From positions 1 through 40,651 of the IMG/VR virus record IMGVR_UViG_3300046533_000621: 40,651 bases of DNA, one strand, 5' to 3'. Positions 2,345-38,465 of this stretch are shown here, piece after piece. Every line of letters starts with the position of its first letter. Positions within the stretch are counted from its first letter, which is position 1. The DNA is from a virus. Both the position numbers and the translations under genes were made by a program. The notes beneath the pieces were generated by a model. That model did no database searches. It was not told the DNA's origin and saw nothing but the letters and a program-made list of their open reading frames with translations.

Positions 2345-2637
2345 TGGGGCGCGAGGAGAAGGCCGCGGCGCAGCGCGAGGCGGTCGTCGGCGAGCTCGAG
2401 GTTGGCGGCGAGCTCGTGCTGCTGCCGAAGATGGACGAACGCCAGGCCGCGATCGATCGGCTGCGTCCGCGATGGTGGCGCCGCGCGCTCGATTGGCTGC
2501 GCGATCGCTTCCGGCGCGGAGACGTCGAGACGGTCGGGATGGGCCGCATGCCCCGAGCGAAGCATCGCGAGATGATCGCGTTCGCTCGCGAGAGCGGCAA
2601 CGGCGCCATGCTCGAGTGCTTGAAGCGTCAGAAGTAG
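2344..2637 (+). CDS. Hypothetical basic protein, 97 aa
   Basis: The ATG at 2344 shares a base with the previous TGA; a GTG at 2341 would add one Met and give a GTGA overlap. The middle is Arg/Trp-rich (RLRPRWWRRALDWLRDRF, about residues 40-57) and could form an amphipathic basic helix. It ends at 2637, overlapping the 3' end of the oppositely oriented terminase gene by 10 bases, so it is the last gene of its unit. No family recognised. Confidence 0.65.
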   Translation: MGREEKAAAQREAVVGELEVGGELVLLPKMDERQAAIDRLRPRWWRRALDWLRDRFRRGDVETVGMGRMPRAKHREMIAFARESGNGAMLECLKRQK

Positions 2638-4328
2638 CCGCCGTTCCCCGCGACGATGTCGTCGTAATCTTCGTCGTCGCCAACGAGCGAGCTGAACTCG
2701 CCGCGCGCCGATCGGTCCGGTTCCATGAACGGCAGATCGTTAGCAGGCTTCGGCGATGCCGCAGCCGGCGCTTCCACGGCGCCAGTCTCGAACATCGTTG
2801 CGATCGCCTTGCGCGCGTAGACGAGACAGTCCGTCGAGTGATTGGACTGCGCCTTGTTCTCTTGCAGGTTGCCCCATGAGTCCTCTTGCCACTGGAGCTC
2901 TTGAAGCTGCACATACAGCGGCGATCCCTTGAGGATCTTGAGCCGGCCGTCGACCAAGTCACCGTTGACGAGTTCGATCGCGCCGAACTTGAGCTCACGC
3001 TTCCACTCGCTCTTTGTGAACCGAACGCCGTAGACGTTCTGGAGCTCGTCGATGTGGTTCTTATCGGCATCGATGACGGACGCGTCCGGGTATCGCGTGA
3101 GCCGATAGAGGCCGTCGAATGGCTCGACGTTCTTTCCGGCCAGGACGCGCGAGACCGACTCAGGGCCGAGCACGATCTCGGCGATCGAGCGGGCGTACAT
3201 GCCGGTGCGCTCGAACGCGTAGACGTGGAAGATGCGGCGCTCCGGGTCAGCGGGCGCAAACGCGAAGATGTTGAGCGCGAAGGGATCGGCCGAACCGAGG
3301 TCGGCGCCGTACACGTACCGCCACTCCTTGAAGTCCTTCGGCAGCGCGGCGATAGCCTTCTCTAGGTGCAGCGGCGTGCCGCCACGCTCGCCGCCGAGCG
3401 GATCCCACTCGTTCCACGGCGCCCCGTCGCGGTGCGGGCGGAACTTGAAGACGTGCTCCGTGTTGTCGGCGGCCCAGCGCCCCTTGTACTCGCGAAGCCA
3501 CGTCGGATTTTCGTCGCTCCATCGGCTGGCCGCCTTGATGGCCAGGTGATCGCGGTGCAGGTTTACGAGCGCGGGGTACTTCGCCGCGGCGTCGGGCAGC
3601 GCGACGACGTCGTCGAGCGACCATGCATGAGAAGTCCAACCGAGCTCCGGCCAGTCGGCGAACTCCGGCGATTCGCGGTCGGCGTAGGGGCGATGGAGCG
3701 GATGGCCGTCCTTGTCGGTCGCGCCCGGTCGCGTGAACTCGTAAAACGGGCCGCGCATGATGTGGTCGGGCGTTCCGCCCATCACGATCGCGCCGAGCCG
3801 ATCGCCGATGCGCGGCATAAGGATCTGGTAGAGCAGTCGCTGCAGTAACTCAGGCGGATAGATGCCGGCTTCGTCTACGTGCACTTCGTCGAACGGCTGG
3901 CCGCGGAGTTTGTCGATCTCGCCTTTGTCGTCTACGCCAACGAGCCGATACGTCGCCCCGGTCGAGCGGAACGTGAGCTTGAGCTTGGTCTCGTGAAAGT
4001 CGATGTCGCGCCCGACTTCAAGGCCAAGCCCTTCACACGCGTTCTTGAGCGGGTCCCACATGAGTTCGGCGGCCATCGGCCGCGAACTCGCGCAGTAGAC
4101 GAGACGCCCGCCGCGAATGCGCGCCAACTTGCGCAGCGCGCGAATCATCATCGAAGTCGTCTTGGCGCCGCCTCTGCCAACCAAGTAGGAGATACAGCGG
4201 GACAGATCGGAGACAGCGTCGCGTTGCCACGGATGGCACTCGTCGAGTAGGCCGTCGATTCGACGTACGAGCGCGCCGTCGGCCCAGCGGATGCGCGCAG
4301 CCGAGCTCGTCCGCTCGTGAGGTCTCAC
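2628..4328 (-). CDS. terL: Large terminase subunit
   Basis: This 566-residue packaging motor protein couples ATP hydrolysis to DNA translocation into the prohead and cuts the DNA. Visible motifs are a Walker A (VGRGGAKT, residues 50-57), a Walker B with catalytic acid (FDEVHVDEA, about 146-154) and a C-terminal RNase H-like nuclease with acidic residues in GADLGSADP (D343), VIDADK (D420 or D422) and STDCLVYA (D500). Length is normal for the family. It starts with GTG at 4328, overlapping the portal stop (GTGA). The C-terminal tail (about 515-566) is acidic and low in complexity. The gene points opposite to the capsid genes, which is unusual. Confidence 0.95.
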   Translation of the reverse strand: MRPHERTSSAARIRWADGALVRRIDGLLDECHPWQRDAVSDLSRCISYLVGRGGAKTTSMMIRALRKLARIRGGRLVYCASSRPMAAELMWDPLKNACEGLGLEVGRDIDFHETKLKLTFRSTGATYRLVGVDDKGEIDKLRGQPFDEVHVDEAGIYPPELLQRLLYQILMPRIGDRLGAIVMGGTPDHIMRGPFYEFTRPGATDKDGHPLHRPYADRESPEFADWPELGWTSHAWSLDDVVALPDAAAKYPALVNLHRDHLAIKAASRWSDENPTWLREYKGRWAADNTEHVFKFRPHRDGAPWNEWDPLGGERGGTPLHLEKAIAALPKDFKEWRYVYGADLGSADPFALNIFAFAPADPERRIFHVYAFERTGMYARSIAEIVLGPESVSRVLAGKNVEPFDGLYRLTRYPDASVIDADKNHIDELQNVYGVRFTKSEWKRELKFGAIELVNGDLVDGRLKILKGSPLYVQLQELQWQEDSWGNLQENKAQSNHSTDCLVYARKAIATMFETGAVEAPAAASPKPANDLPFMEPDRSARGEFSSLVGDDEDYDDIVAGNGGYF

Positions 4329-6208
4329 GCCACCGCTTGCGCCGCCATCGGATTGAATGCCGATTGCGGCGTGCCGGCGTTAGGTGCCGAGCCGGGCATC
4401 GCAGGACCGCCACCAGCGCCCGGCTGCATCGCCGCCTGCGCCATCGCCTGGTTCTGGTTCGCCGCCTGCGCCTGCTTCATCAGGTACACGGCGAGCGAGG
4501 CGTAGTTCCGTGCGCGCTCGAGCACTTCCTCGGGTGCACCGTCGACGACCCAGATCTCGTATTGCATGTGCGACCGCCACGCGGCGAGCTCGAGGTTCGT
4601 GAACGGATCCGGCATGACGTCCTCGCCGTCGGCGATGCGCTCGAGGTCGTATTCGACCTTGTCGAGCGCCGCTGTGTAGAGCGAGAGCGATCGATCGAGG
4701 TCCGGATGCGCAAGCAACCGCCGCGCTTCGTCTTGCGCGATAACGCCAGCCTGCGCCCACTCGAGCACGGTCTGTAGACGACCTGCGGGCGTACGCGACA
4801 TTGTGCTCGCCGCCTGGAGTTGGATCTTCAGGTCGCCCATGTCGACCTGCGACCACTCGATCTTCTTCTTGCCGAACCGCGACGGCCGAAGGACGGCGGG
4901 CGCCTTCTTACCGAGCTTCTTGCACGTCCAGAGGATGAGCCAGACGATGTTGAGAACGAACTTCTCGAACGCCTTCTCTTGCGTCGCAAAGCGCTGCGTC
5001 GACTGATCGCGGTACTCGCGGAGGGCGATGCCGGAGTCGAGGCCTGCCGGCTTCGTCGACTGCGCGGCCATGCGCGACACGCCGAACTCCTCAAACGAGC
5101 TCGTCTTGGTGCGCTCACGATGTTCAAGCGTCAGCGGCGACACCGCTTGCGGAACGACCGTTACAGGAACGTCGCCGCGATAGATCGCGATCGTGCCGAG
5201 TCGACTTGTCGTCTTGGTCGCGAGATTCGCATCCGTCGGGCGTACGTACGTCGTCGGCACCGCGAGCTGATCGTGCTGGCGGTCGATCTGCCAATTGAGC
5301 TTATTGAGCGTGAGTTGGTGGCCGACGATGCGTTCGCCGCCGCCGATGCCGTACCAGCTACCCGACCGCGTCTCCCAAACGATCTTGAGAACGGGAAAGA
5401 AATCCTCGTCCCATTCCTCGTCCACGAGGTCGGCCCCGTCGATCGCCTTCACGTGTCGGCCTGGGCGGTAGTACTTCGAGCCCTTGCGCCCGAAGGGGCG
5501 GAACCACGACTCGATAACGACGGTCTCGTAGGGGCGAAGGCTGGAGTACTGGACGCGGCGTGACACTGCAGATCCGCCCCGCAGAAGGCCGGCGCGGTCG
5601 ATCTCGTCGGCGAACTCGGGATACTCGGTCTTGAGATCCTCTTTGGAGACGTTCGTGCGGCGATGGTGGAGCTGCTTGGCGGACTGCTCGAAGCGACACT
5701 CGAGCTCGTTGACGATGATGTCGTCAGGCAAGACGTGCTCGACGACCACGTCGTCGTCGCGCGTCGTCGACACCTTCACGCATCCGGTCCCCTTCTTTGC
5801 TGCTTCCTTGAACGCCTTGCGTGCGTGACCGTGCACGTCGTGCAGGGCCATCATCGACTCGGAATACCACTCGAGATGGCGAGCGCGACGCTGTTGCGAC
5901 CAGTCCGCGCCGTCCGTCTCGACTCGCGGAGACACCTCGGTCTCGGCGACAACAGCCTTGACCGTGTCGACATTGCTCGCCAACACGTTCTCGTTGACGA
6001 TGCCGCGATTCTCGAATGCGTACTGGTCGACGATTGCGTTGTTGTTGGGGTCGTAGAGCGCTTCCAGGCGAATAAACCGCTCGTAGATGGCCTGCTGTCG
6101 CTGCTCGATCTCGGGAACCTGGCGGAACAGCGCCTCGTGGACGGCACCGGTGTCGGCGTTTTGCCAGAGATGCGCAGTCGCCTCGTTCTTTCTGCCGCGG
6201 ACCTTCAT
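4325..6208 (-). CDS. Portal protein
   Basis: A 627-residue protein immediately downstream of a small gene and upstream of the terminase, the usual packaging order. Its N-terminal third has a long helical region (EALFRQVPEIEQRQQAIYERF) and the R-x-R-H-L-E-W-Y and Y-G-I-G-G-G-E-R segments typical of podovirus-type portals. The last ~60 residues are Gln/Ala/Met-rich and low in complexity, like a disordered or barrel-lining tail. It would form the dodecameric DNA channel at one capsid vertex. The start ATG at 6208 overlaps the preceding stop by 4 bases. The call rests on size, sequence style and position. Confidence 0.88.
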   Translation of the reverse strand: MKVRGRKNEATAHLWQNADTGAVHEALFRQVPEIEQRQQAIYERFIRLEALYDPNNNAIVDQYAFENRGIVNENVLASNVDTVKAVVAETEVSPRVETDGADWSQQRRARHLEWYSESMMALHDVHGHARKAFKEAAKKGTGCVKVSTTRDDDVVVEHVLPDDIIVNELECRFEQSAKQLHHRRTNVSKEDLKTEYPEFADEIDRAGLLRGGSAVSRRVQYSSLRPYETVVIESWFRPFGRKGSKYYRPGRHVKAIDGADLVDEEWDEDFFPVLKIVWETRSGSWYGIGGGERIVGHQLTLNKLNWQIDRQHDQLAVPTTYVRPTDANLATKTTSRLGTIAIYRGDVPVTVVPQAVSPLTLEHRERTKTSSFEEFGVSRMAAQSTKPAGLDSGIALREYRDQSTQRFATQEKAFEKFVLNIVWLILWTCKKLGKKAPAVLRPSRFGKKKIEWSQVDMGDLKIQLQAASTMSRTPAGRLQTVLEWAQAGVIAQDEARRLLAHPDLDRSLSLYTAALDKVEYDLERIADGEDVMPDPFTNLELAAWRSHMQYEIWVVDGAPEEVLERARNYASLAVYLMKQAQAANQNQAMAQAAMQPGAGGGPAMPGSAPNAGTPQSAFNPMAAQAVA

Positions 6209-24749: not shown

Positions 24750-25366
24750 GCGACCCGCGCCCCTGCTCTGCGCCTGAAGCCGTTGCTCGCGCCTTGCGCT
24801 GCGTCGCCTCGAAGAAGGGGCAGTACGTGCTCGGCACCGGCGACTACCGGCCTGGCTCGAGCTTCGGCCAGCTCGTCGACGAGCCGTGGACCGATCGCGG
24901 CGACGGCACGGTCGGCTCGGACTGCGCCGGCTTCGCGATCTCGTGGTGCTACAAGTTGCGCCGTCACCGGCCGGGCTACAACGTCGGACCGTGGAGCTCG
25001 TGCAGCGACGACATCAACTGCAACAGCGCGCTCGAGGACGCCCAGCACGCCAAGGACTGCTTCGCGCTCGTCGACGATCAGACGCCGCTGCCGGGTGACC
25101 TGCTGCTCTATCCGAGCTTCACGCTGGCGACCAGCGATGGTCCCAAGCAGTTCATCGGGCACGTCGCGATCGTGGTTGGCGTGTCGCGCGTCCAGGCGTG
25201 GGATGCGAGCTCGCCGCGGTGGGACCTGCTCGACGTCGCGCAATGCCACGGGCCCAACGGATTCAAACCCGGCGCGGTGGCGACGGATGGGAGCATCTGG
25301 CTACGGCACGACGTCGTGTGGCCGAAGCCGGAGCACCGGAGCCATCTGATACGGGCGTTGCCTTAG
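24746..25366 (+). CDS. Endolysin (NlpC/P60- or CHAP-like peptidase)
   Basis: A 206-residue cell-wall peptidase. Catalytic Cys60 lies in S-D-C-A-G-F-A-I-S-W at the start of a helix, and His139 in F-I-G-H-V-A-I-V-V-G, with the typical P-G-D-L-L-L-Y-P strand just before. This Cys, then PGD, then G-H-V-A order is that of papain-like NlpC/P60 and CHAP enzymes, which cut peptide bonds in peptidoglycan. There is no signal peptide, so it would need the holin. Extra cysteines (66, 86, 92, 105) are notable. It closes the late unit, and its stop overlaps the convergent gene. Confidence 0.82.
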   Translation: MSDPRPCSAPEAVARALRCVASKKGQYVLGTGDYRPGSSFGQLVDEPWTDRGDGTVGSDCAGFAISWCYKLRRHRPGYNVGPWSSCSDDINCNSALEDAQHAKDCFALVDDQTPLPGDLLLYPSFTLATSDGPKQFIGHVAIVVGVSRVQAWDASSPRWDLLDVAQCHGPNGFKPGAVATDGSIWLRHDVVWPKPEHRSHLIRALP

Positions 25367-25850: not shown

Positions 25851-26026
25851 GGCTGGTCCAGTTCCTTTATCAGTTCGGCATCGCACGGCTCGCACACGTC
25901 GAGGTTCTCCCAATGCTTCGGCGGCTCCATCTTCGTGTTGCCGCAGCGACTGCACCAGTTGTCCTCGCGCTTCTTCCTGCCGGTACAGAAGTCGCACCCA
26001 CATCTCACCGAGAACAGGTCACTCAT
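25847..26026 (-). CDS. Small zinc-ribbon protein, 59 aa
   Basis: It starts at ATG 26026; codons further upstream belong to the antisense of the next gene. It contains eight reasonably paired metal ligands: V-R-C-G-C-D-F-C, then W-C-S-R-C-G and V-C-E-P-C, giving one or two zinc ribbons. Such proteins usually bind nucleic acid or another protein. No catalytic residues are visible. Confidence 0.65.
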   Translation of the reverse strand: MSDLFSVRCGCDFCTGRKKREDNWCSRCGNTKMEPPKHWENLDVCEPCDAELIKELDQP

Positions 26027-26418
26027 CTCGTTCCTCTCTGCCTCTCCGTCATCACATCGGCGAGCGGGCTCGCGCACAGGGCTACCACGAGCCACTGCTG
26101 GCAGAAGGCGGACCAGACGCGGTGGTTGAACGGGGCGCCGTAGCGCTCGCATAGGTGCCACGTCAGCCAATCGCGCTCGCGCTCAAGGGCAAGCGGCGAC
26201 CGGCCGCGATGGCGATCATATCGGCGAAGTTCGTCATCGGTCCACGGTCGCTGATCGACAGGTCCGGGCTCGGCCCATCGGCCGAGGTATTCGCGCTGCC
26301 ATTCGCGCGGCTCGCTAGCCTTTATCCGTCGCTCCATCTCGCGCCATCTGCGCGCGAGATCCGGGGACACATCGAGGACACCCCCGAGCACGTTTCCCGG
26401 TTTCTCATCGTTCGCCAT
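26023..26418 (-). CDS. Hypothetical protein, 131 aa
   Basis: ATG 26418 with GGAGA 9 bases upstream. The N-terminal half is basic and helical with Trp repeats (ARRWREMERRIKAS, EWQREYLGRWAE), and the C-terminal half contains DWLTWHLCERYGAPF and a hydrophobic WSAFCQQWLVVALCAS segment. It is the first gene after the attachment-site gap, where TACAAT (complement of 26439-26444) could serve as a -10 box. No family recognised. Confidence 0.65.
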   Translation of the reverse strand: MANDEKPGNVLGGVLDVSPDLARRWREMERRIKASEPREWQREYLGRWAEPGPVDQRPWTDDELRRYDRHRGRSPLALERERDWLTWHLCERYGAPFNHRVWSAFCQQWLVVALCASPLADVMTERQRGTR

Positions 26419-26473
26419 GATTCGTTTCTCCGTCGAAGATTGTAGCTAACCGCTGCGCCGCCGTTCAGTCGTA

Positions 26474-26519
26474 GTGGTCTGCAAAACCACCATCGCGCGT
26501 TCGAATCGCGCTGGCACCT
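26474..26519 (+). other. Putative attP core: 3' half of a tRNA-Cys(GCA) gene
   Basis: The plus strand shows an intact anticodon arm (GTGGT at 26474-26478, loop CTGCAAA with anticodon GCA, ACCAC at 26486-26490), a 4-base variable region, a perfect T arm (GCGCG at 26495-26499, loop TTCGAAT, CGCGC at 26507-26511), the 3' acceptor strand TGGCACC and discriminator T at 26519, the base expected for tRNA-Cys. No matching 5' half (GGTGCCA plus D arm) precedes it, so this is not a working tRNA. A tRNA 3' half in a genome with a tyrosine integrase is the standard form of an attachment core. The surrounding gap (26419-26577) holds no gene. Confidence 0.75.
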
Positions 26520-26577
26520 CGCAGAGTTACGGCGGATCCGGCGATCGCTCGGGACACTTGGCGGACACCGACCGACG

Positions 26578-27309
26578 TCATTTCGACGCGCTTGCGATCA
26601 GCGCTTCGATCTCGGCGGGCGCCTGCCGCGGGTCCTCCTCTGACGCCTGCTGCGCCGCCTTTAGCCGCCACAGCGGGATCTCGACTTTGGGCACATCGAC
26701 CCACGCCGCGTTCGAGTCGGCTGGCGTCTTGTAGTCCGCTTTCGTCGCAATGATCGTTCCGTTCTTCTTGTAGACCCAGTGACGGCGGCACGCCGGGCAA
26801 CTGGCTCCGCTGTCCCCGCCTCCCCACATGTTGAAGTTGAGCGGGATGCCGTCGTGCTCGCACACGGCGTCGACTGAACTGGCGTGCCTGTAATACGCCC
26901 GTCCGGCCGCCGAGAAGAGATGGCCCCACAGCGCGTCTTCTCGGTCGTTGTCGAGCACCGAGACGGGGCCGCCGCCATCGCTGCCGTAGTAGACGGTGCA
27001 GCCATGCCAAACGTGCCTTAGGAACCGTGCAACGGCCAGGATGTCGACGATCGGGCCGCGCTCGTATCCGGGGCCATAGTAGCGGGCAAGCGTGCGCACG
27101 CCGACGCGAGTCGATCCTTCGGCGATCGGCTCCTCGTCTTCGTATCGAGTGCTGTTCGTGACTATCGTTAGGCACGGTCTCTCGGGCGGCGAGTGCCACA
27201 CCGCCGACGAACCGCCGAGCGAGACAGCGAGCCGAACGCCGGCTGCGCGAACAGCGCTCTCATCGAGCACGCGAGGAACATCGCAGAACATGATCGAGTC
27301 GAGGCCCAT
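26578..27309 (-). CDS. Hypothetical protein downstream of integrase, 243 aa
   Basis: The start at ATG 27309 shares one base with the integrase stop (TGATG); the longer frame upstream is antisense read-through. The protein begins MGLDSIMFCDVP, then a region with GSSAVWHS and YYGPGYERGPIVDILAVARFL. Residues about 135-195 include HDGIPLNFNMWGGG and a C-P-A-C-R-R-H pair with Cys145-like spacing that may form half a zinc site. The C-terminus is a helix. I do not recognise a family. Confidence 0.7.
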   Translation of the reverse strand: MGLDSIMFCDVPRVLDESAVRAAGVRLAVSLGGSSAVWHSPPERPCLTIVTNSTRYEDEEPIAEGSTRVGVRTLARYYGPGYERGPIVDILAVARFLRHVWHGCTVYYGSDGGGPVSVLDNDREDALWGHLFSAAGRAYYRHASSVDAVCEHDGIPLNFNMWGGGDSGASCPACRRHWVYKKNGTIIATKADYKTPADSNAAWVDVPKVEIPLWRLKAAQQASEEDPRQAPAEIEALIASASK

Positions 27310-28370
27310 CAATTCACCTCCGCTTCCGGTTGCAGCGCCGCCAGCACCGCGCTGGCCGCGCCGAGTTTCTCGTCCGCTCCGACGAAACTGTAGTGCTCGA
27401 CCATCGTGTCGGTGACGTGGCCGGTGATCGACTTGAGAACCTCGCGCGATGTCATCTGGCGCGCGAGGTTGTTGAACGTGCGGCGGAGGCCGTGGACGGT
27501 CACGCGCTCGACTCCACCAGCAAGGCAAGCGGCGCGGAGCACGCGGAGCACAGGGGAACCCCGATAGAGGCCGCCTCGCTCGGACCTAAATAGAGCACCG
27601 TTCGCTGGTGTTCCCAGGAGCGCCCACACCTCGGGCAGGATGGGAACAGTTCGAGGACGATCCGTTTTGACCGTGACGACTTCGCCGCGGCTGTTGCTTT
27701 TCGTGATCGTCGCTTCGTTGCCATCGATATCCTCCCAGGAAAGCGCGCTTGCCTCGCCCCAGCGCAGGCCCGTCGTCACCATGAGCAGCACGAGCCCGCG
27801 CCACTTCTCGGGGATGTGCGCGAACACGAGCCGGAACTGTTCGGCGGTGAGCAGGTTCGGCCGCTGCTTCGTGTAGCGGCGGACCTTCGGCGAGGCGACG
27901 CGCGCGCAGAAGTCGCGGTACGCGTAGCCTTCGTTGAGCGCATCCTTCGCCATCGTCCGCAACATCCGTAGCTCGTTGAGCACGGTGTGGCCCTGCGCGG
28001 TCCGCATCCGCTTGACGACGTAGCGCTGCACGTCCTCGGGCGTCAGCTTGTCGACGTAGATGTCGCCGAGGCCCGGGATGATGTGCCGCAGACAGAAGAC
28101 GTAACGGCGATGCGTCGACGGCTTGAGCATCGGCTTCCTACGTTCCGCCCAGGCTGCGGAGAACTCGCTCAAGAGCAGCCTGCGAGCGCTCGGAGATCCG
28201 GACGCCAGCACCGCTCGGATCTCGTCGCGCTTTGCGCGTGCGTCGGCCTTTGTTCCGTTGACCGTCGCCTTGCGATTCGTCTGTTGCCCCGTCCTCGCGT
28301 CGCGTCGCTTCACCCGGACGCGGAATAGGTTGCGGCCGATCTGCTTGATTCCCTCGTCGTCGCTCATCAT
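27309..28370 (-). CDS. int: Tyrosine recombinase integrase
   Basis: A 353-residue site-specific recombinase that would insert the phage into and excise it from the host chromosome. After a basic N-terminal arm-binding region (about 8-55) and a core-binding helical domain (about 65-155), the catalytic domain shows R203 in T-T-G-L-R-W-G-E, K235 in V-K-T-D-R-P-R, H293 and R296 in H-G-L-R-R, H318 in T-G-H-V-T-D and nucleophile Y327 in V-E-H-Y-S-F. All six expected residues are present. The start MMSDDEG at 28370 is preferred; upstream codons are the helix-turn-helix gene in another frame. The attP core lies ~0.8 kb downstream. Confidence 0.93.
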   Translation of the reverse strand: MMSDDEGIKQIGRNLFRVRVKRRDARTGQQTNRKATVNGTKADARAKRDEIRAVLASGSPSARRLLLSEFSAAWAERRKPMLKPSTHRRYVFCLRHIIPGLGDIYVDKLTPEDVQRYVVKRMRTAQGHTVLNELRMLRTMAKDALNEGYAYRDFCARVASPKVRRYTKQRPNLLTAEQFRLVFAHIPEKWRGLVLLMVTTGLRWGEASALSWEDIDGNEATITKSNSRGEVVTVKTDRPRTVPILPEVWALLGTPANGALFRSERGGLYRGSPVLRVLRAACLAGGVERVTVHGLRRTFNNLARQMTSREVLKSITGHVTDTMVEHYSFVGADEKLGAASAVLAALQPEAEVN

Positions 28371-28548
28371 GGCGAGCCTGCCTTGTCTTGAACCATCGAT
28401 CGAGCGTCTCGGTCGAGAACACGTAGCCGCCGCGGTAGCCGCGACCATCCGGAACGAGCTCGCCGGAGTACACGAGCTGGCGGATGCCGGCGCGCGAGCG
28501 GAACCCGAGGTAGTCCGCGGCGGAGGCTGTGTCAAGCAAGCGGCTCAC
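28138..28548 (-). CDS. Helix-turn-helix protein, excisionase-like, overlapping integrase
   Basis: Read from GTG 28548, this frame gives 136 residues. Residues 1-55 match a MerR/excisionase-type winged helix: LLDTASAADYLGF, then G-I-R-Q-L-V-Y-S-G-E-L-V-P, a G-Y-R-G-G-Y wing and V-F-S-T-E-T-L-D-R-W-F. Beyond residue 59 the frame runs on for 233 bases inside the integrase gene and becomes very basic and Gln/Arg-rich, as expected for out-of-phase coding. Its DNA-binding head is convincing and an Xis role directing excision is likely. The tail may be real or a consequence of the overlap. Confidence 0.7.
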   Translation of the reverse strand: MSRLLDTASAADYLGFRSRAGIRQLVYSGELVPDGRGYRGGYVFSTETLDRWFKTRQARHDERRRGNQADRPQPIPRPGEATRREDGATDESQGDGQRNKGRRTRKARRDPSGAGVRISERSQAALERVLRSLGGT

Positions 28549-33154: not shown

Positions 33155-33373
33155 GTGAGCCGCCGTCCTCCCCCGCTGCACGAGCGCATCAAGGAGCGCG
33201 TTACGGCGGCGGGCTTTACGCAGGGCGACCTGGCCGAGCGACTCGGCTGGCACGAGATGAAGGTCTGGCGCGTCTTGAACGGGCGCACTGCGCTGTCTGC
33301 TGACGACGTCGAGATCTTCGCGCGCCTCCTGCGCGTTCCCGTCGGCGATCTCTACGACGCCAAGGCGAGCTGA
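33155..33373 (+). CDS. Cro-like XRE-family regulator
   Basis: A 72-residue protein with a complete helix-turn-helix: A-G-F-T-Q-G-D-L-A-E-R-L-G-W (about 19-32), recognition helix H-E-M-K-V-W-R-V-L-N-G-R (about 33-44), then LSADDVEIFARLLRVPVGDLY, the classic end of XRE/Cro domains. It is the first gene of the rightward unit, as cro is in lambda, and probably competes with the repressor. It starts at GTG 33155; AAGG lies too close to act as a normal ribosome site. Confidence 0.83.
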   Translation: MSRRPPPLHERIKERVTAAGFTQGDLAERLGWHEMKVWRVLNGRTALSADDVEIFARLLRVPVGDLYDAKAS

Positions 33374-34781: not shown

Positions 34782-35207
34782 ATGCGCAGTCCAATTGAGA
34801 TCCGGTTAACGGACGCGATCGTCGATGCGCTGGAGCAGCGCGGTATTGACGAGCTGTTCGACGAGTACCTTCAGTTTCCGGTTGAGTCGTATCGCATCGA
34901 CATCATGCTCGAGGGTACGTACGGCCGCCTCGCCGTCGAGTGCGACGGCTTCGACTTCCACGATCGCACGAAGCAGCAAGCCGCATACGACCGGTCGCGC
35001 GATCGGCGGCTGTTGATGCTCGGCATCCCGACGATCCGTTTCACCGGCAGCGAGATCGTCCACGACGATGCGCGGTGCGCGGCCGAGGTCATCGATCTGT
35101 TCATCGAACTCGAGGAGCGCGCACGCCTGCTCTTCGAGGCGCTCAGGGCGAGATGCGATCGACAGTACGACGCCGACCCGTCGGCGTTTCGTATGGGGAA
35201 GATCTAA
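34782..35207 (+). CDS. DUF559/Vsr-like PD-(D/E)xK endonuclease
   Basis: A 141-residue protein with a restriction-endonuclease-like core: Y-R-I-D-I-M-L (D40), L-A-V-E-C-D-G (E53, D55), then K-Q-Q-A-A-Y-D-R-S-R-D-R-R-L-L-M-L-G-I-P-T-I-R-F-T-G-S-E-I. This order is that of DUF559 and very-short-patch-repair-like nucleases. It sits directly after the previous stop and shares a base with the replication initiator's ATG (TAATG). A role in recombination, host DNA degradation or replication is possible. Confidence 0.78.
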   Translation: MRSPIEIRLTDAIVDALEQRGIDELFDEYLQFPVESYRIDIMLEGTYGRLAVECDGFDFHDRTKQQAAYDRSRDRRLLMLGIPTIRFTGSEIVHDDARCAAEVIDLFIELEERARLLFEALRARCDRQYDADPSAFRMGKI

Positions 35208-36309: not shown

Positions 36310-36803
36310 GCGACTTCGAGCCCGATCCCGAGGTCCTCGCCGACGCGCATCTCCGCAACGAGACCGAGCGCGACTCGACGCGAACGCGCGGCCAAGGCGT
36401 CTACGACTGGCAGCCGTCGCCGACCGTGGCGCAATGGCCGTGTCGCAACGCGAAGTGCGGCGCCCTGTGCGACGTGACGCAGGACGCGATCGACCACCTC
36501 GCGATGTTTAACCGCCAGCTCGCGCGCAGCGGCAAGCCGGCGATCCAGCCAGCCGAGGTCATGGCGTGCAAGTCGTGTCGCTCGCTGCTCGAGGAATGGC
36601 GCGAGCGTGGCAATCGGCGTGTCGTGACGGACATGGCGGTCGCGCTCAAGCGGCTTCGCGCCAGCAACAACCCGGAGGGCGAGACCGAGCTGATTCGCAT
36701 GCTCGAGGCGTGTCGCTACCCCGACGTGCAGGCGGCGATCCGGGCGATGCGCGCGAGCATCGAGGCGCGGAAGGCGAAGCCGGGACGGATGGGGAGCGTA
36801 TGA
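36306..36803 (+). CDS. Zinc-finger-like hypothetical protein, 165 aa
   Basis: An acidic, Arg-rich N-terminus (about 1-40) precedes W-P-C-R-N-A-K-C-G-A-L-C-D (about 44-56) and, after a helix, M-A-C-K-S-C-R-S-L-L (about 89-98), a likely Cys4 zinc site. The C-terminal part is helical (VVTDMAVALKRLRASNNPEGE, QAAIRAMRASIEARKAKPG). It could bind DNA and is coupled to the methyltransferase that follows. No family recognised. Confidence 0.68.
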   Translation: MSDFEPDPEVLADAHLRNETERDSTRTRGQGVYDWQPSPTVAQWPCRNAKCGALCDVTQDAIDHLAMFNRQLARSGKPAIQPAEVMACKSCRSLLEEWRERGNRRVVTDMAVALKRLRASNNPEGETELIRMLEACRYPDVQAAIRAMRASIEARKAKPGRMGSV

Positions 36804-37558
36804 CCGCCTCCGGATCCGACTGGACGCTCCACCTCGGCGACTGCCTCGAATGGCTGCCGACGTTGGCGGACAAGAGCGTCGATGTGGTCATAACCGACCC
36901 GCCGTACAGCGAGCATACGCACGCCAAACAGTGGATCGGTGCCGCGCTTACCCAGAACGGCGCCAAACGCGTCAGCACGAGCCACGCCGGGCTTTCGTTC
37001 GCTGCGATCACCGCAGAGCAGGCAGCCGAATGCGCGCTCCAGTGGCAGCGTGTCGCGCGTCGTTGGGTGATCGCGTTCACCGACTTGGAAGGGATCGCGC
37101 TGTGGAGCCTCGCTTTCGCCAATGCCGGTCTGGACTACGTGCGCACGTGCATTTGGGACAAAGTTGACGGCGCGCCGCAGTTCACCGGAGATCGCCCCGC
37201 GGCCGGAGCCGAGGCGGTGGTGTGTTCGCATCAGCCCGGAAAGAAGCGATGGAACGGCGGTGGTCGGCGGAACGTGTTTCGCCACGAGGTCAATGGCCAG
37301 CGCGGCGACAAGCCCCACCCGACCACCAAGCCTGTGCCGCTCATGTGCGAGCTCGTCTCGCTGTTCTCCGACCCCGGCGAGCTTATCCTCGACCCCTTCG
37401 CCGGCAGCGGCACCACCGGCGTCGCCGCCCTGCGCCTCGGCCGTCGCTTCCTCGGCTGCGAGCGCGACGCGAACTACCACGCGATCGCCGAGCGTCGGCT
37501 CAGAGGCGACGAGGCGTGTCCGAAGCCAGAACAGCCAAGTCTGTTTGGAGAGCCGTGA
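36800..37558 (+). CDS. DNA methyltransferase, beta class
   Basis: A 252-residue S-adenosylmethionine-dependent enzyme that would methylate an amino group in DNA (N6-adenine or N4-cytosine). The catalytic motif IV, T-D-P-P-Y (32-36), comes before motif I, D-P-F-A-G-S-G-T-T-G (198-207), with target region between, giving the beta-group order. T-T-K-P (175-178) is the usual motif X. The D-P-P-Y form suits adenine or N4-cytosine and does not decide. No restriction partner is next to it, so it may protect phage DNA or regulate. Confidence 0.88.
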   Translation: MTASGSDWTLHLGDCLEWLPTLADKSVDVVITDPPYSEHTHAKQWIGAALTQNGAKRVSTSHAGLSFAAITAEQAAECALQWQRVARRWVIAFTDLEGIALWSLAFANAGLDYVRTCIWDKVDGAPQFTGDRPAAGAEAVVCSHQPGKKRWNGGGRRNVFRHEVNGQRGDKPHPTTKPVPLMCELVSLFSDPGELILDPFAGSGTTGVAALRLGRRFLGCERDANYHAIAERRLRGDEACPKPEQPSLFGEP

Positions 37559-37772
37559 GTTTCAAGTCTAGCGATCCGGCGTTGCGGGCTTTCGACGAAG
37601 CCTACGACCGCATCATCGGCACGTCGCTGGACGAAGCCTGCGCCCAACGCGACGCCCTCCACGACGCGCTGAGCTCGCTTGTGGCGCATGTTCGGCGCAT
37701 CGGCGGGTACGCGACGCAGGACGAGCAGAACGTGGTGTGGCGAGCTATGGCGGTGCTGGAGGAGACGAGACG

Positions 37773-37776
<4 letters not shown>
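37555..37776 (+). CDS. Small helical protein, 73 aa
   Basis: GTG 37555 overlaps the methyltransferase stop. The sequence is mostly one or two helices (ALRAFDEAYDRIIG, LDEACAQRDALHDALSSLVAHVRRIG, NVVWRAMAVLEET). No motif is recognised. Coupled to the repeat-containing gene downstream. Confidence 0.65.

Positions 37777-38461
<685 letters not shown>

Positions 38462-38465
<4 letters not shown>

Follow-up and report, generated by a model that had tools for sequence, protein, structure and literature searches.

Islands that target tRNA genes are catalogued in Islander (PMC4383910). In mycobacteriophages, the anticodon loop is a common location for attP/attB sites; the typical common core is 30-45 bp long and includes the tRNA 3' half, and paired putative arm sites flank the core in systems with lambda-like integrases (PMC10865867). 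The locus described here lies in a viral contig of 40,651 bases, the whole of which was analyzed and is called the window below. Judged from sequence comparison, positions 26365-26568 of the window are almost certainly the attP of a temperate tyrosine-integrase phage that targets a host tRNA-Cys(GCA) gene. What is seen directly in favor of this reading is the sequence itself, the geometry of the arm repeats, a set of related phages, and integrated relatives that stand beside intact tRNA genes.

The common core, at 26474-26519 on the plus strand, is the 3' half of a tRNA-Cys(GCA). Its anticodon arm is GTGGT-CTGCAAA-ACCAC, with the anticodon GCA at 26481-26483 (+), and is followed by the variable region CATC, the T arm GCGCG-TTCGAAT-CGCGC, the acceptor strand TGGCACC, and a discriminator T at the 3' end. 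Both the anticodon arm and the T arm pair perfectly, and tRNA-Cys usually carries U73 as its discriminator. A complete tRNA was not detected by ARAGORN anywhere in the window. The Rfam tRNA model RF00005 gave a partial match to 26457-26519 in which the D arm was skipped, with a score of 21.2 bits (E 0.013 over the 101 bases searched) that falls below the gathering score of 29 bits. When the 5' halves of natural tRNA-Cys genes were grafted onto the core, a tRNA-Cys was called by ARAGORN in 21 of 21 grafts, and in 0 of 200 controls in which the core had been shuffled. The only similar DNA in public phage records was a tRNA-Cys annotated in Bacillus phage G (84%, 37 bases, E 0.02). Chance is not a reasonable explanation for this half tRNA, and the original prediction of a tRNA-Cys(GCA) 3' half without a 5' half was confirmed letter for letter, with ARAGORN, the grafts, and RF00005 in agreement.

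The core sits between two minus-strand open reading frames, one at 26023-26418 and the other at 26578-27312; the latter, without a Pfam or PHROG match, separates it from a tyrosine integrase gene (27309-28370, minus strand; product of 353 aa; Pfam PF00589, 6.9e-13; PHROG 1 integrase, 9.6e-58), which lies 790 bp beyond the core. Residues R203, H293, R296, H318, and Y327 of the integrase are invariant in an alignment of four relatives, and we take them, from general knowledge of the family, to be candidate catalytic residues. Just upstream of the integrase gene lies an HTH_17 excisionase-like gene (28354-28548, minus strand; PF12728, 1.6e-6), of which a longer frame matches the phrog_66 excisionase/regulator family (5.7e-6). 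To the left of the site are the terminase and portal genes (2628-6208) and a CHAP-domain gene (24755-25366), and to its right are the integrase module, a Cro/CI-type HTH gene (33155-33373), and a DNA methylase gene (36797-37558). Because phage genes thus flank the site on both sides, the genome would be unintegrated or circularly permuted and the site its attP, not the end of a prophage; terminal repeats were not found on the 40,651-base contig. Elsewhere in the window, a small protein encoded at 34782-35207 (+) matches REase_MTES_1575 and DUF559, and a long low-complexity tract of Ala/Asp/Tyr repeats occurs in an open reading frame at 37737-38465 (+).

Scanning the sequences on either side of the core for repeats revealed GGGACACATCGAGGACACC (26364-26382) and GGGACACTTGGCGGACACC (26551-26569), both made up of GGACAC copies in tandem with a period of 11 bases. 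The proposed arm-type integrase sites, GGACAC-N5-GGACAC, are accordingly placed on the plus strand at 26365-26381 for the P arm, at offsets of -112 and -101 from GTCTGCAAAACC, and at 26552-26568 for the P' arm, at offsets of +75 and +86 counted from where GTCTGCAAAACC begins. This double tandem pair around the core is the sole such place in the window, and when the two flanks were shuffled 20,000 times, a tandem 6-mer of 11-base period shared by both sides arose once. Since this statistic was framed after the GGACAC repeat had been noticed, comparison with related phages is the stronger evidence for arm sites. A literature search on GGACAC arm sites, as far as titles and abstracts go, returned nothing directly relevant. 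To judge from the paired putative arm repeats, the attP site extends beyond the 46 bases of the original prediction, and the locus as a whole combines a tRNA 3' half lacking its 5' half, a tyrosine integrase gene 790 bp away, and putative arm repeats on both sides.

Related phages were sought among viral contigs. A relaxed half-tRNA-Cys pattern matched in nine of them, and ARAGORN detected no complete tRNA in the stretches around these matches; a tyrosine integrase related to that of the window was encoded in all nine records, with E values from 6.6e-80, for the contig referred to as G008 (IMG/VR 3300020034_000037), to about 2e-6. The GGACAC arm pattern searched alone matched 17 contigs, two of which, G298 (3300048915_000122) and G299 (3300003316_000390), have a tRNA-Cys half between the arms. 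The integrases of G298, G299, and G008 are 60%, 47%, and 43-45% identical to that of the window, respectively. G298 and G299 were picked by the GGACAC pattern, so that the motif they share with the window is not independent evidence, but their tRNA-Cys halves and related integrases are; G008 was found via its tRNA half, and its arm repeats played no part in the search. Measured from GTCTGCAAAACC, the GGACAC repeats lie at -112/-101 and +75/+86 in the window, at -111/-100 and +77/+88 in G298, and at -114/-103 and +76/+87 in G299, and the repeats of G008, which read CGCTGCA, lie at -113/-102 and +73/+84. Across the four phages, the repeats therefore fall at -111 to -114, -100 to -103, +73 to +77, and +84 to +88. 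As G008 carries a different repeat at like offsets, it is the position that is conserved and not the letters, which is what should be expected of arm-type sites read by each phage's own integrase. The orientation of the integrase gene is not fixed: the window and G008 have it 3' of the core and directed at the core, and G298 and G299 have it 5' of the core. Taken together, G298, G299, and G008 resemble the window in having a related integrase, a tRNA-Cys(GCA) half, and an arm geometry alike within about 3 bp, whereas they differ from it in the sequences of the T arm and the variable region, in the CGCTGCA arms of G008, and in the orientation and distance of the integrase gene. The G008 contig has a 127-base direct terminal repeat and hence probably represents a complete circular assembly.

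The GGACAC-N5-GGACAC double pair was also observed near more distant tyrosine integrases (loci L148, L158, L159, L160, and L162). Between the GGACAC pairs, L158 has an apparent tRNA-Gly(GCC) 3' half, and L159 has the 5' part of a tRNA.

In viral contigs, a single-sequence search found no relatives of the integrase, and a query built from the alignment matched one at locus L181, in a phage referred to as G305. Its integrase is 52% identical to that of the window, and just past the integrase stop codon, at about 5155-5190 on the minus strand, lies a hairpin of the form GATCGCA-GTGGTCTAGAAAACCAC-TGCGATC. The G305 core is without a tRNA T arm, and only one GGACAC pair is present, near the expected offset. 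The retention of GTGGTCTAGAAAACCAC in this hairpin is consistent with the anticodon-stem motif being what the integrase reads, and the missing T arm, which we count against the attP reading, indicates that relatives can use other targets. Relatives of the terminase were not found among viral contigs. A pattern representing the integrated junction, run on viral contigs as well, returned loci L154 and L156 again, together with five apparently unrelated stretches without a complete tRNA.

Apparently integrated relatives were found in Myxococcota by running a profile of the four integrases on 140 sampled genomes from the phylum of a Myxococcales metagenome-assembled genome; 12 of the 140 had a match at E 1e-30 or better. 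Eight matches from eight genomes were inspected, and a complete tRNA gene was located no more than a few hundred bases from the integrase gene at six of the eight loci: tRNA-Gly(GCC) twice, tRNA-Gly(CCC), tRNA-Arg(TCT) twice, and tRNA-Val(CAC). At two of these, L208 and L209, the tRNA is on the strand opposite the integrase with the 3' ends facing, which is the arrangement predicted for the integrase-side junction of the window phage. These integrases are more distant relatives; BLAST aligned four of the six, at 30-38% identity. The intact tRNA beside the integrase at the six loci fits what an integrated junction predicts, integration being read here from position only.

The interpretation of the 46 bases as an attP core in the original prediction is supported by the half tRNA-Cys near an integrase gene, by the arm offsets of the four phages, and by the six relatives beside intact tRNAs. 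The accompanying idea that the host could be found by its identical tRNA-Cys segment has led to nothing so far, the exact 46-mer being absent from a collection of 84,980 species genomes; nor was the 46-mer matched in other viral contigs or in plasmids. With up to three mismatches allowed, the core had no match among 282 genomes from the phylum of a Myxococcales hit or among 60 from the phylum of a Fibrobacteres hit. A relaxed tRNA-Cys pattern matched at least 119 stretches in the species genomes, and in the former of the two phyla a relaxed pattern matched 2 of 235, neither of which was identical to the core. The Myxococcales hit itself (L005) was rejected as a host lead on its GC content, 39% for that stretch versus about 65% for the window phage. 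An integrated copy of the window phage was not seen in the genomes searched. The failure to find a host, in searches that covered few of the high-GC phyla, does not count strongly against the attP reading; the host may lie outside the collection. In a Clostridiales contig (L077), two matches to the tRNA-Cys pattern lie close together, at 300-340 and 1036-1076, and one of them has an altered 5' half and is perhaps a displaced or decayed copy.

For the window phage, we infer the protein-DNA contacts, the exact crossover, and integration as follows. The N-terminal domain of the integrase would bind the paired GGACAC repeats, and the core-binding and catalytic domains would bind the inverted repeat of the anticodon stem, GTGGT/ACCAC, whose two sides are the proposed core-type sites (26474-26490, plus strand); the ACCAC side alone is kept in two relatives. 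Strand exchange with the host tRNA-Cys(GCA) gene would then take place within the intervening 7-base anticodon loop CTGCAAA. The host 5' half joined to phage positions 26474-26519 would make the tRNA-Cys complete again and leave the integrase module immediately past that junction, and the displaced 3' half of the host tRNA would mark the opposite end of the integrated phage.

The same half tRNA could conceivably be a scar of imprecise excision or of tRNA capture that no longer serves as an attachment site; remnants of such a kind are conceivable, and the lack of an integrated copy in the 84,980-species collection is in line with one. A scar is nevertheless very improbable, given that the anticodon and T arms pair perfectly, that both arm pairs are intact, and that three other phages with related integrases show this layout as well. 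Even less credible is that the host tRNA is destroyed upon integration and its place is taken by a tRNA that the phage carries. Such tRNA-dependent lysogeny has been described for actinobacteriophages that likewise have tyrosine integrases and paired arm sites, in which the common core measures only some 10 bp and the phage encodes a complete tRNA (PMC10865867), whereas the window has a 46-base core equal to the whole 3' half and is without a complete tRNA. We give equally little credence to the idea that the segment is transcribed into a tRNA-derived RNA that acts on its own, for instance as a decoy, and not in integration: full pairing is possible in both the anticodon arm and the T arm, and nothing else was found in its favor, but the conserved arm repeats and the integrase neighborhood need no such role.

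The proposed attP indicates that this virus is temperate and names its most likely target gene in the host. The comparison of the four phages also provides a sequence rule for spotting attP, namely, a tRNA-Cys half accompanied by tandem 6-mers with 11-bp spacing near -112 and +75, which could link the virus to its host once the host is sequenced. Tentatively, and with more doubt than confidence, the phages may belong to a largely uncharted metagenomic clade with one integrase type, a tRNA-Cys target, and a rigid attP geometry, in which the arms can be swapped from GGACAC to CGCTGCA and G305 has switched to a hairpin core in which only the anticodon-stem motif is retained. If so, the clade would be a natural series in which to study how integrases change their arm and core specificity.

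Compared with the described tRNA-gene attP systems (PMC4383910 and PMC10865867), the window is alike in that its core is a tRNA 3' half that would restore the gene, that paired repeats flank the core, that integrase and excisionase-like genes are nearby, and that relatives adjoin complete tRNAs. It differs in its target, tRNA-Cys, and in its integrase, to which the best of those listed in named phage records are about 24-28% identical. The site is almost certainly an ordinary attP with good comparative support, and its proposed integration strategy is a well-known one.
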